From: a virus
Length of the DNA stretch: 26,036 nucleotides
IMG/VR virus record: IMGVR_UViG_3300042881_001351
Location: 1-26,036 of that record
Reading direction: 5' to 3' (one strand)
The position numbers were made by a program, and so were the translations under genes. The notes under the pieces are model-generated. The model was given only the letters and a program-made list of their open reading frames with translations. It was not told where the DNA came from and searched no databases. Positions 12,496 to 15,343 of the stretch are shown here, in pieces. Position 1 is the stretch's first letter; each line of letters starts with the position of its first letter.

Positions 12496-13140
12496 ATGTC
12501 AAATCTCGTTACTTTTAAAGGCGCAAACCTTCCTGCCGTATCATCCCTGACTACCGCGTTGCGCTCACTTGAGAGCGTTGCTGGCCCTGCCGGCACCGTC
12601 ATCATCAAGATGGACAAGACCGGCCACTGGGTGTTCGGCGCTGACCAGACCGACGTTGAAGAAGATTCGACTTGGGCGGTCAATCCGTTCTCGTTCGTGC
12701 ACGGTTACATCGCATGGGGCGACGGCGAAGTGCTGGCCGAGAAGATGGTGTCGGTTACCGAGCCGCTGCCAGAGATGGAGGCAGCACCGCCCGGCGCCAA
12801 GAAGGGTTGGGAGGCGCAAGTCGGCCTGTCGATGAAGTGCATCTCCGGCGAAGACAAGGGCATGGAAGCTCGCTATACCGTAACATCGGTGGGCGGCAAG
12901 AAGGCCGTGCAGGCACTGGCCGTTGCAATCGCCGAGCAGGTCGAGAAGGATCAGACCAAGCCCGTGCCTGTCGTGCATCTGAAGAAAGATCACTACACGC
13001 ACAAGTCGTATGGCCGCATCTACACACCGGTCTTTGAAGTCGTCGAGTTCGTCTCGATGAACGGTGAAGCCGATGAGCCAGCAGCAGAAGCTGAGGCGCC
13101 CGCCGCCGAAGCAGCACCCGCACGTCGTCGTCGCGGGTAA
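12496..13140 (+). CDS. Probable ssDNA-binding / recombination partner protein
   Basis: A 214-residue soluble protein with a beta-rich core (NLVTFKGANLPAVSSLTTAL, then KMDKTGHWVFGADQ, WEAQVGLSMKCISGEDKGME, RIYTPVFEVVEFVSM) and a low-complexity tail of Ala/Glu repeats ending ARRRRG. It sits directly between a Cas4-like nuclease and the DNA polymerase, the usual place of a phage ssDNA-binding protein. An acidic, flexible tail is typical of such proteins, although the last four arginines are not. AAGGA precedes the ATG. Family not recognised by name; the role is inferred from position and composition. Confidence 0.78.
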   Translation: MSNLVTFKGANLPAVSSLTTALRSLESVAGPAGTVIIKMDKTGHWVFGADQTDVEEDSTWAVNPFSFVHGYIAWGDGEVLAEKMVSVTEPLPEMEAAPPGAKKGWEAQVGLSMKCISGEDKGMEARYTVTSVGGKKAVQALAVAIAEQVEKDQTKPVPVVHLKKDHYTHKSYGRIYTPVFEVVEFVSMNGEADEPAAEAEAPAAEAAPARRRRG

Positions 13141-13331
13141 GTAGCACGGGGGAAAGCGGATGCTGTGCGGGTGTCAGGTCGCGGTGCAACTCCGCCCCGC
13201 TTTGCAATCACAGACGCAGCGAGTACCCCACCTTTCAATGGCACCGGTTACCTAATCATCAGGCTCTTCCTTGGTCGGTTCGACCTGATGCTGCCACGGT
13301 AACCGGGGCCACCCTCTCTAAAATAAAAACT
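13141..13331 (+). promoter_or_regulatory. Structured leader / candidate non-coding RNA upstream of DNA polymerase
   Basis: This 191-base gap has no ORF of note but contains two folded parts. Part A (13153-13203): AAAGCGG pairs with CCGCTTT, and directly inside its 3' strand GCGG-TGCAACT-CCGC forms an arm, a geometry like a tRNA acceptor/T-arm minihelix. Part B (13240-13310): a 13-bp stem with one A-G mismatch (GGCACCGGTTACC with GGTAACCGGGGCC) encloses CATCAG/CTGATG and GTCG/CGAC stems, an extended 71-base hairpin. The polymerase ATG 22 bases later lacks a Shine-Dalgarno site. It may control polymerase expression or serve replication. Confidence 0.55.
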
Positions 13332-15299
13332 ATGTCTATTCTTTGGGGTGATTTCGAAACGAGAAGTCGCTGCGATTTACCGTCGCGCGGCGGCTATAAC
13401 TACAGCTTGGACGCAAGCACATCAATCCTGTGCTTCTCTTACGCTTTTGGAGACGACGATGTACAGACATGGACGCCAGATCAACCATTCCCTGAATCAA
13501 TATCAGAACACATTCGCGCTGGTAAACAACTGCGGTTTCATAACGCCGGTTTTGATCGTCAGATCTTTTGGAATGTCTTATGCCAAGATTTTGGCGTACC
13601 CAAGCCTGCGCTTCACCAGTTCTACTGCACCGCTACACAAGCGCGTGCTAACTGCTTACCTGGCAGCCTTGAAGACGTCGGACGCGCCATCAGTAGCAAC
13701 ATGCGCAAAGACCACCGAGGCGCGCAACTTATTCGTGCGTTGTCTATCCCTCGAGCAGATGGATCGTTTAATGAAGACCCCAAACTGGTAGCTGAGATGA
13801 TCGCCTACTGCGAGCAGGACGTGCGCGTCATGCGCGAGATCAGCAAGGCCATGCGCCCGCTGTCCGATCAAGAGCTGGCCGACTACCACACGAACGAGCG
13901 CATTAACGACCGGGGCGTGCTGCTTGACCTGCCGCTGGCCAAAGCCGCCATCGAGTACGCATCCGTTGAGCTGGAAGAGATTGAGACGTTAGTCGCCGAC
14001 CTGACACAGGGCGAGATTAAGTCGGTGCGCAGCGCGCGCATGAAGCAGTGGGTCATGGACCGTGTCGGGCCGCAGGCATTAAAGATGATGGAGGTCTACA
14101 AGGACGGCAACTTGAAGTACAGTATCGATAAGTCAGTGCGCGCCAACCTGTTAATTTTTGCCGAGGAGAACCCTGATGAGATTCCGGCCCATGTTGCGGA
14201 CGTCATTCAATGCGCGGACGACCTCTGGGCGTCGTCGGTTGCGAAGTTCAGCCGCCTTGCAGGCTTGGCGGACGAAGACGATCATCGAGTACGAGGTGCT
14301 TTTGTCTTCGCTGGTGGATCAGCTACCGGACGAGCTTCAAGCTATGGTGCGCAAGTCCACAACTTCACGCGCAAGTGCGCCAAAGAACCCGAAGATGTTA
14401 GGCACGCTATGGTCAGAGGCCACAGCATCACCCCAAGATTTGGAAAACGCGTTACAGATGTTCTCAAGGGAATGCTCCGGCCCGCATTGATCCCCGCGCC
14501 CGGCAAGCAGTTCGTGGTCGCCGACTGGTCGGCAGTCGAGGCCCGTGTCACTGCATGGGCGTCCGCCGACCCACAAGCCGACGAGGTGCTGCAGGTGTTC
14601 CGCGAGGGCCGTGACATCTACAAACGTGAGGCGGCGGGCATCTACCGGGTGCCCGAGGCGTCGGTCGACAGCGAGCAGCGCCAGATCGGCAAGGTCGCGA
14701 TTTTGTCGCTCGGCTTCGGCGGCTCGATCGGCGCGTTCTCCGCGATGGGCCGCAACTACGGCGTCATCATGCCCGAGTCCGACTCCCGCCGGATTGTCGA
14801 CGCTTGGCGTCGCGCGAATGCGTGGGCGGTACGCTACTGGGGCAAGCTCGAAGACGCCTACACGCGGGCGCTACGCAACCCCGGGCGTGAGTTCTCAGCC
14901 GGGCGGGTGACGTACCTGTACGACGGTCAGCACCTCTGGTACGCGCTGCCGTCCGGTCGCATCTTGTGCTACCCGTTTGCTAAGTTTGAGGGTGATGAGA
15001 TCACTTACGTCAAGGCGGCATGGAAGCCGGCAGCGGATGCAAAGGAATGGCCACGGGCGCGCTTGTGGCGAGGGCTGGCTTGTGAGAACATAACGCAGGC
15101 GGTCGCCAACGATCTGCTACGGCATGCTTTACGCCAGCTTCCCGACGTGGTGCTGCATGTCCATGATGAGATCGTTCTGGAGACGTCTGACCCTGATGCA
15201 CCCAATACCCTAAAGCAAGTGATGTGTACGCCGCCTGACTGGGCGGCTGGACTGCCTTTGTCCGCAGAAGTCGAAGTAATGAATCGTTACGGCAAATAA
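13332..15299 (+). CDS. Family A DNA polymerase with 3'-5' exonuclease domain
   Basis: A 655-residue replicative polymerase. Exonuclease motifs: DFE (D7, E9), HNAGFD (D75) and YCEQD (Y159, D163). Polymerase motif A is VADWSAVEARV (D398, E403), motif B RQIGKVAILSLGFG (R450, K454, F462) and motif C LHVHDEIV (D612). There is no 5'-3' exonuclease domain. At the position equal to E. coli Pol I Phe762 it has Leu (L458), and at Tyr766 it has Phe. The start fits the family (ILWGDFETRS at the N-terminus), yet no ribosome-binding site precedes it. A TAAAAT box ends seven bases upstream, and a structured segment lies further upstream. It pairs with the primase-helicase gene that follows. Confidence 0.96.
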   Translation: MSILWGDFETRSRCDLPSRGGYNYSLDASTSILCFSYAFGDDDVQTWTPDQPFPESISEHIRAGKQLRFHNAGFDRQIFWNVLCQDFGVPKPALHQFYCTATQARANCLPGSLEDVGRAISSNMRKDHRGAQLIRALSIPRADGSFNEDPKLVAEMIAYCEQDVRVMREISKAMRPLSDQELADYHTNERINDRGVLLDLPLAKAAIEYASVELEEIETLVADLTQGEIKSVRSARMKQWVMDRVGPQALKMMEVYKDGNLKYSIDKSVRANLLIFAEENPDEIPAHVADVIQCADDLWASSVAKFSRLAGLADEDDHRVRGAFVFAGGSATGRASSYGAQVHNFTRKCAKEPEDVRHAMVRGHSITPRFGKRVTDVLKGMLRPALIPAPGKQFVVADWSAVEARVTAWASADPQADEVLQVFREGRDIYKREAAGIYRVPEASVDSEQRQIGKVAILSLGFGGSIGAFSAMGRNYGVIMPESDSRRIVDAWRRANAWAVRYWGKLEDAYTRALRNPGREFSAGRVTYLYDGQHLWYALPSGRILCYPFAKFEGDEITYVKAAWKPAADAKEWPRARLWRGLACENITQAVANDLLRHALRQLPDVVLHVHDEIVLETSDPDAPNTLKQVMCTPPDWAAGLPLSAEVEVMNRYGK

Positions 15300-15302
15300 A
15301 AA

Positions 15303-15322
15303 AGCCGCCTGGCAGGGCGGCT
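15303..15322 (+). terminator. Hairpin after DNA polymerase gene (weak terminator)
   Basis: AGCCGCC (15303-15309) and GGCGGCT (15316-15322) form a 7-bp GC-rich stem with a six-base loop, four bases after the polymerase stop. Only CTTTC follows on the plus strand, while an A-rich run precedes. It would therefore terminate rightward transcripts weakly and leftward read-through better. It may attenuate expression of the primase-helicase relative to the polymerase. Confidence 0.5.
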
Positions 15323-15343
15323 CTTTCAACTACAAGGACTGCA

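Follow-up and report, generated by a model that had tools for sequence, protein, structure and literature searches.

The window analysed here is a stretch of 26,036 nucleotides of viral DNA (IMG/VR record IMGVR_UViG_3300042881_001351), in which a gene for a family-A DNA polymerase is preceded by a gap of 191 bases, extending from the stop of the upstream ORF to the polymerase ATG (Table 1). The ORF coordinates bear out the initial annotation, made by a model from the sequence alone, which had noted these free bases; its observation that the polymerase ATG lacks a ribosome-binding site also holds, as no Shine-Dalgarno-like run is present 5' of it. A DUF2815-type identity of the upstream ORF was dropped in view of the missing Pfam match and the assignment to phrog_9528. 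Directly 3' of the polymerase stop, at 15303–15328, a hairpin AGCCGCCTGGCAGGGCGGCT is followed by CTTTC and possibly represents a weak terminator.

Judged by its folding energy, the gap is unremarkable (z-score of −0.93, with 33 of 200 shuffles folding as well), and since the energy alone is unexceptional, relatives must decide whether the gap is structured. The search against Rfam that had been suggested in the initial annotation returned no match for the window at the gathering threshold and chance-level matches only at relaxed thresholds (Histone3 with 16 bits, SCARNA17 and mir-207), so that a known Rfam family was rejected for the gap, whereas covariation across related loci, as detailed below, speaks for a structured RNA. 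ARAGORN detected no tRNA in the window, and when 601 nt spanning the gap were compared with INPHARED by Blast, all matches were short and unrelated.

Table 1 Features of the polymerase locus in the window.
Feature	Position	Strand	Description
Upstream ORF	12496–13140	+	PHROG 9528, annotated as a nucleotidyltransferase; without Pfam match
Part A, stalk-and-head RNA element	13148–13229	+	R1 covariance-model match plus relatives
P1, 5' strand GGGG	13148–13151	+	pairs with 13226–13229 (CCCC)
Constant 5' core GAAAGCGGATG	13152–13162	+	loop strand GAAA, P2 strand GC, GGA, P3 strand TG
Exchangeable head, 51 nt	13163–13213	+	closing stem 13163–13167/13209–13213, covarying
T-arm-like hairpin GCGG/CCGC, loop TGCAACT	13181–13195	+	4 bp, inside head
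Constant 3' core GCAGCGAGTA	13216–13225	+	P3 and P2 strands, internal-loop strand GAGTA
P1, 3' strand CCCC	13226–13229	+	partner of 13148–13151
Part B, extended hairpin	13240–13310	+	lineage-specific; separate from part A
Family-A DNA polymerase gene	13332–15299	+	Pfam PF00476, PHROG 17

Using the polymerase protein as a query, we collected 80 IMG/VR loci with 69–96% identity. In these loci (designated by L numbers, as are all others below) the gap is modular. Directly behind the upstream stop, which in the window ends 7 nt 5' of P1, a variable part is bordered by GGGG-GAAAGCGGATG on its 5' side and by GACGCAGCGAGTA-CCCC-ACC on its 3' side, and this part A is followed in most relatives by part B, after which the polymerase ATG comes directly or is preceded by an inserted gene. 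Inserts of this kind, HNH-like or DNA methylase-like as judged by eye, separate part B from the polymerase gene in L007, L010, L017, L021, L028, L039 and L066. Part A occurs without part B in four loci (L043, L055, L058, L060), the gap of L054 holds a plain GC hairpin, and four further loci (L067, L072, L074, L079) contain no element, their flanking genes being joined by a stop/start overlap. In more distant polymerase relatives, the same slot is occupied by other structured elements with GGGG...CCCC-type stems (L069, L076, L080; L070, L077; L054; L056), and those of L056, L069, L070 and L080 had no match in Rfam.

The 13-bp outer stem described for part B in the initial annotation is present (13240–13252/13298–13310), and the proposed comparison of relatives confirmed part B as a hairpin by covariation: both partners have changed with pairing preserved in 10 of its 24 pairs (16 variants, 73 columns, counted without shuffles). 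Part B occurs only in loci of this polymerase lineage, where it follows part A, and because of this confinement it is regarded as a local addition and rejected as a general feature. At the base of part B and 8 bases 3' of part A, a 5-codon ORF starts (13238–13255, MAPVT followed by a stop). Many relatives possess a similar ORF, but in L039 the ATG is changed to ACG, and the ORF was rejected as a gene.

Fold and spread of the stalk

Part A is composed of a stalk, which comprises P1, the internal loop GAAA/GAGTA and the invariant strings AAAGCGGATG and GCAGCGAGTA, and of an apical, exchangeable head. The R1 covariance model matches the window at 13146–13231 with 58.1 bits over the whole model in the default run; with filters off the match is partial (16.1 bits), which is attributed to the long head of the window, and we relied on the default run and the sequence letters. 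The 5' core GAAAGCGGATG is near-invariant among 227 unique elements, an invariance to which the search patterns themselves contribute; these patterns also fix P2 and P3 in the alignment. Among the loci retrieved via the polymerase, P2 is replaced in L056 and L058, where GC/GC is changed to GAC/GTC.

P1, the pairing of which was not selected for, is paired in 852 of 872 cells, compared to a mean of 588 and a maximum of 618 after shuffling, and all four of its pairs show changes on both sides. In an alignment of 60 sequences with trimmed heads, 95.3% of the cells pair versus 75.1% in shuffles, and cells changed on both sides amount to 147 versus 43 in shuffles (0/500; score 0.521 versus 0.147). 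Both P1 and the closing stem of the head covary strongly, and the covariation signal of part A is lost when the partner strand is slid. With compensatory changes exceeding both the shuffled and the slid controls, part A qualifies as a structured RNA family, and the structured non-coding RNA initially proposed for the gap is strongly supported by the very comparison of related loci suggested at the time. On the sense strand, G-U pairs (68) exceed A-C mismatches (13), from which we conclude that selection acts on this strand as RNA. No intrinsic terminator is recognizable, as P1 is followed in most copies by ACC and mixed sequence with no U run. A short coding ORF through part A was rejected, since the ORFs from the ATG at 13160 terminate early in many relatives and are not conserved.

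The stalk extends far beyond the polymerase lineage. The exact 20-mer GACGCAGCGAGTACCCCACC is found in at least 119 IMG/VR contigs, and a search with P1 left free gave at least 120 IMG/VR matches. The parsed set comprises at least 322 elements from 319 loci; 227 of the elements are unique, their apical arms (9–111 nt) take 210 distinct forms, and there is an enlarged IMG/VR set of at least 340 elements with 219 arms. Across the entire collection of bacterial and archaeal species, the 20-mer is matched exactly once, on a MAG contig, and plasmids contain marginal half-length matches only. Consensus queries against INPHARED produced weak matches in four Manatee Spring phage records, three of which are confirmed by R1 (MW202879.1, MW202462.1, MW202710.1). 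When R1 was applied to 30 large viral records (19–91 kb), exactly one copy was detected in 28 of them, and the other two carry long-headed copies that R1 missed and that are seen in the sequence. Against Rfam 15, the stalk scores below the gathering threshold in the window and in 13 other loci scanned whole, and no description of such an RNA was found in the open literature searched. As far as can be judged from sequence comparison, the stalk-and-head RNA is a large, undescribed phage family of structured RNAs. In L408, L412, L413 and L417, a second stalk subclass stands in tandem just 3' of part A; it reads GGGC-GAAAGCGG...GGACGAACGTT-AGTA-GCCC and retains GAAA/AGTA, while its inner part differs.

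Exchangeable heads and genomic placement

The initial annotation had interpreted part A as a tRNA minihelix with a 7-bp acceptor-like stem (AAAGCGG at 13153–13159 with CCGCTTT at 13197–13203) stacked on a T-like arm. This stem does not withstand comparison as a functional fold, since most relatives lack the partner CCGCTTT, among them L009, whose upstream DNA is 96.5% identical to that of the window. AAAGCGG belongs to the invariant stalk strand and CCGCTTT to the exchangeable head; the two can pair, and enforcing this pairing gives −23.3 kcal/mol, compared to −28.1 kcal/mol for the conserved stalk fold. It is P1 that forms the base of part A, and it encloses the invariant core. The acceptor-plus-T-arm geometry is thus wrong for the window, the presumed acceptor strand being constant stalk with an unconserved partner, and a tRNA minihelix was rejected for its part A, also in view of the negative ARAGORN and Rfam searches. 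The hairpin with the T-arm-like loop TGCAACT, on the other hand, is present as described and is kept in the head type of the window, with a compensatory change from C-G to T-A in L094.

A tRNA theme recurs in other heads. T-loop hairpins are enriched, occurring in 8 of 134 head types compared to 0.8 in shuffles. The head of L404 corresponds to a tRNA body with D, anticodon and T arms (RF00005, 31.4 bits versus a gathering threshold of 29, E-value of 9e-5), in which the acceptor positions are occupied by stalk bases that are mostly unpaired in the RF00005 model. Pieces resembling a D arm or a T arm are also carried by L109, L166, L396 and L399; L109 was not scored as a tRNA in the Rfam search.

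Clustering of the heads from the copies collected resulted in 134 types in 84 flank families, i.e. unrelated DNA contexts, with 33 types present in at least two of them, and the Chao1 estimate is about 379 head types. In 74 pairs the upstream DNA is at least 95% identical, and 41 of these pairs have heads that are less than 65% identical, as exemplified by the closely related L009, the head of which is unrelated to that of the window. Conversely, 82 pairs share a head at 90% identity or more without detectable upstream similarity. The 51-nt head of the window is carried, with hardly any change, by 13 other contigs, in each case within the same stalk, and P1 around this head type has five different sequences (GGGG, GGCC, AGCC, AGGC or TTGG). 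Another head of 83 nt is identical in unrelated phages and occurs only inside the stalk, and a 24-mer taken from it is found nowhere else in IMG/VR. These comparisons of viral sequences show that heads are exchanged horizontally between unrelated phages. Compared to dinucleotide shuffles, the heads fold moderately better than chance (mean z-score of −1.23; −0.76 for the inner part).

Among the copies collected, a sense-strand ORF ends just upstream of the element in 241 of 268 non-redundant contexts, and the distance from the stop to P1 is 5–9 nt in 201 of the 268, most commonly 7. The upstream proteins fall into about 49 unrelated clusters, and there is no common downstream gene. Upstream genes include those for ssDNA-binding proteins (SSB, Enc34-type, gp2.5-like and DUF669-containing), Gam-like proteins, ribonucleotide reductase and exonuclease; downstream genes are equally varied (RusA-like resolvase, Cas4-like exonuclease, MazG, primase), and ParB-like genes are also among the neighbours of part A. 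By eye, the copies in L322, L344 and L354 lie directly behind tRNA genes. In L320, L340 and L368, a TATAAT-like box ends a few bases 5' of the element, which, as read from the sequence, suggests that a transcript of its own can begin at the element. Given these varied contexts, the element is not tied to the polymerase. No linked phage partner protein was found, as comparison of the collected flanking DNA revealed no protein family in more than 16 of the 84 loci, which makes a host factor or a self-sufficient RNA likelier than such a partner.

Two further observations concern the DNA directly 3' of part A. In L089, L091, L121 and L160, a strong sigma-70-like promoter (TTGACA...TATAAT) is found there together with a conserved non-coding stretch. 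One lineage (L082, L100, L118, L287) carries another conserved, structured-looking stretch, CCGGAGGTGGCGCTAATAACACCGGCAGCGGGGGC...GTGACCCCGC.

Possible roles of the element

The comparisons show a predicted sense-strand RNA with a conserved stalk and structured heads, usually present once per genome. In our preferred reading, which we hold tentatively and at less than an even chance, the element is a phage RNA, and its head engages a host factor that varies. The RNA would be transcribed with early or replication genes and would act as RNA, probably in trans. The stalk could confer stability or offer a docking site to some widespread host factor. The head would act on a target that varies from host to host, possibly a tRNA-related enzyme or an RNA-targeting defence, by binding, mimicking or titrating it. 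Such a host-variable target would account for heads being swapped like specificity alleles. Located 5–9 nt behind a stop, the RNA would fold just ahead of the terminating ribosome without being unwound, a placement that would also permit insertion into packed operons. However, the strict post-stop position fits a role in cis equally well and therefore counts against the trans model, and identical heads could stem from very recent recombination rather than from a selected function. The more specific idea, namely that an RNA chassis common to unrelated phages displays interchangeable heads, including acceptor-less tRNA bodies, which are swapped to counter or hijack host RNA-directed machinery, is conceivable, though less likely than not.

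Because of the strict placement, a cis-acting intercistronic element is nearly as likely as an RNA acting in trans, and is to be taken equally tentatively. It could function in mRNA processing, 3' protection, antitermination or translational coupling, with the head as a tolerated filler that closes the hairpin. This reading draws on the sense-strand position 5–9 nt behind a stop in the 201 of 268 contexts and on the relatives lacking part A, which couple their genes by stop/start overlap. Furthermore, hairpins A and B would shorten the distance from the stop to the polymerase ATG with its missing Shine-Dalgarno sequence, and several contexts follow genes for ssDNA-binding proteins, which are usually required in excess. 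It is difficult to reconcile with the diversity of the upstream protein clusters, the lack of a shared downstream gene and the copies that lie behind tRNA genes or a likely promoter instead of between two cistrons, and a pure filler would be unlikely to beat shuffles in folding, to be rich in T-loops and to recur as types. The initial annotation had left open a new cis-regulatory RNA, a tRNA mimic or a replication element; the structured RNA and, for some heads, the tRNA theme have stood, whereas a role specific to replication or in polymerase control is unsupported, since the same RNA occurs in 84 unrelated contexts, most of them without an adjacent polymerase. A replication signal, i.e. an RNA primer or origin transcript in the replication module whose hypervariable loops set the compatibility between phages, would match the usually single copy and the frequent proximity to ssDNA-binding protein and polymerase genes, but in view of contexts with tRNA genes or ribonucleotide reductase, ParB-like and MazG neighbours we consider it very improbable.

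The movement of heads between unrelated genomes, bordered by constant strands of 16–20 nt, and the recombination genes among the neighbours could also point to a mobile element, that is, a selfish RNA or DNA cassette or a landing pad at which phage recombinases exchange the sequence between the constant strands. The usual single copy per genome and the strand bias disfavour a selfish repeat; copies are on the sense strand behind a gene or promoter and not scattered, the tolerance of G-U pairs indicates selection on RNA, and no transposase or endonuclease family is common across loci, which together make this reading unlikely. A guide or antisense RNA, the head of which would base-pair with a nucleic-acid target as in VIPR vrRNAs or CRISPR RNAs, is equally unlikely, even though a constant and a variable part in a phage RNA recall the two-part logic of vrRNAs (PMC13142463). 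The heads are internally paired hairpins devoid of YNNGG repeats, and probes from two heads, an 18-mer in the case of the window and a 24-mer in the other, have matches in IMG/VR inside the stalk only, apart from one stray coding match; the hairpin heads and the lack of viral targets in IMG/VR for these two probes disfavour the guide reading.

If the reading of a head that engages a host factor is true, one RNA part would be common to many otherwise unrelated phage genomes, which is rare for phage features, and the head swaps among near-identical phages would have the look of an arms race or of host matching in which RNA takes the place of protein. The two invariant strings of 10 nt provide an easy handle for counting and expressing these RNAs as well as for pull-downs and swaps. 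The plainest reading is still that of a new, strongly supported RNA family that has been overlooked by annotation.

Comparison with known systems

The internal loop GAAA/GAGTA at the base of the stalk appears to resemble the bulged-G (sarcin-ricin) module, a likeness read from the sequence; the module is a common one and does not define a family. With respect to tRNAs (RF00005) and tRNA-like structures, the head of L404 equals a tRNA body and that of the window contains a T-loop hairpin; however, the stalk-and-head RNA has no acceptor stem or CCA, the stalk taking the place of the acceptor, and most heads are not tRNA-like. Type III toxin-antitoxin RNAs and their phage mimics are comparable in that an RNA head could likewise neutralise an RNA-targeting defence. 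This likeness is restricted to the proposed mode of action, as the stalk-and-head RNA lacks tandem repeats and a linked toxin. The putRNA of HK022 is also a short structured RNA in early phage transcripts that needs no protein partner (PMC9378689); compared by description, it differs in being a known cis antiterminator, and its title and abstract describe no exchangeable head. VIPR vrRNAs are phage RNA guides with 9–16 YNNGG tandem repeats carrying GGY motifs and with linked vipr and vap genes (PMC13142463). Measured against this published description, no YNNGG tandem repeats are visible by eye in the listed heads, the variable part of the stalk-and-head RNA is a folded head and not a guide tract, and no protein family was common to more than 16 of the 84 loci; yet as phage-encoded RNAs that combine structurally constant with hypervariable parts, vrRNAs represent the nearest published parallel in logic.
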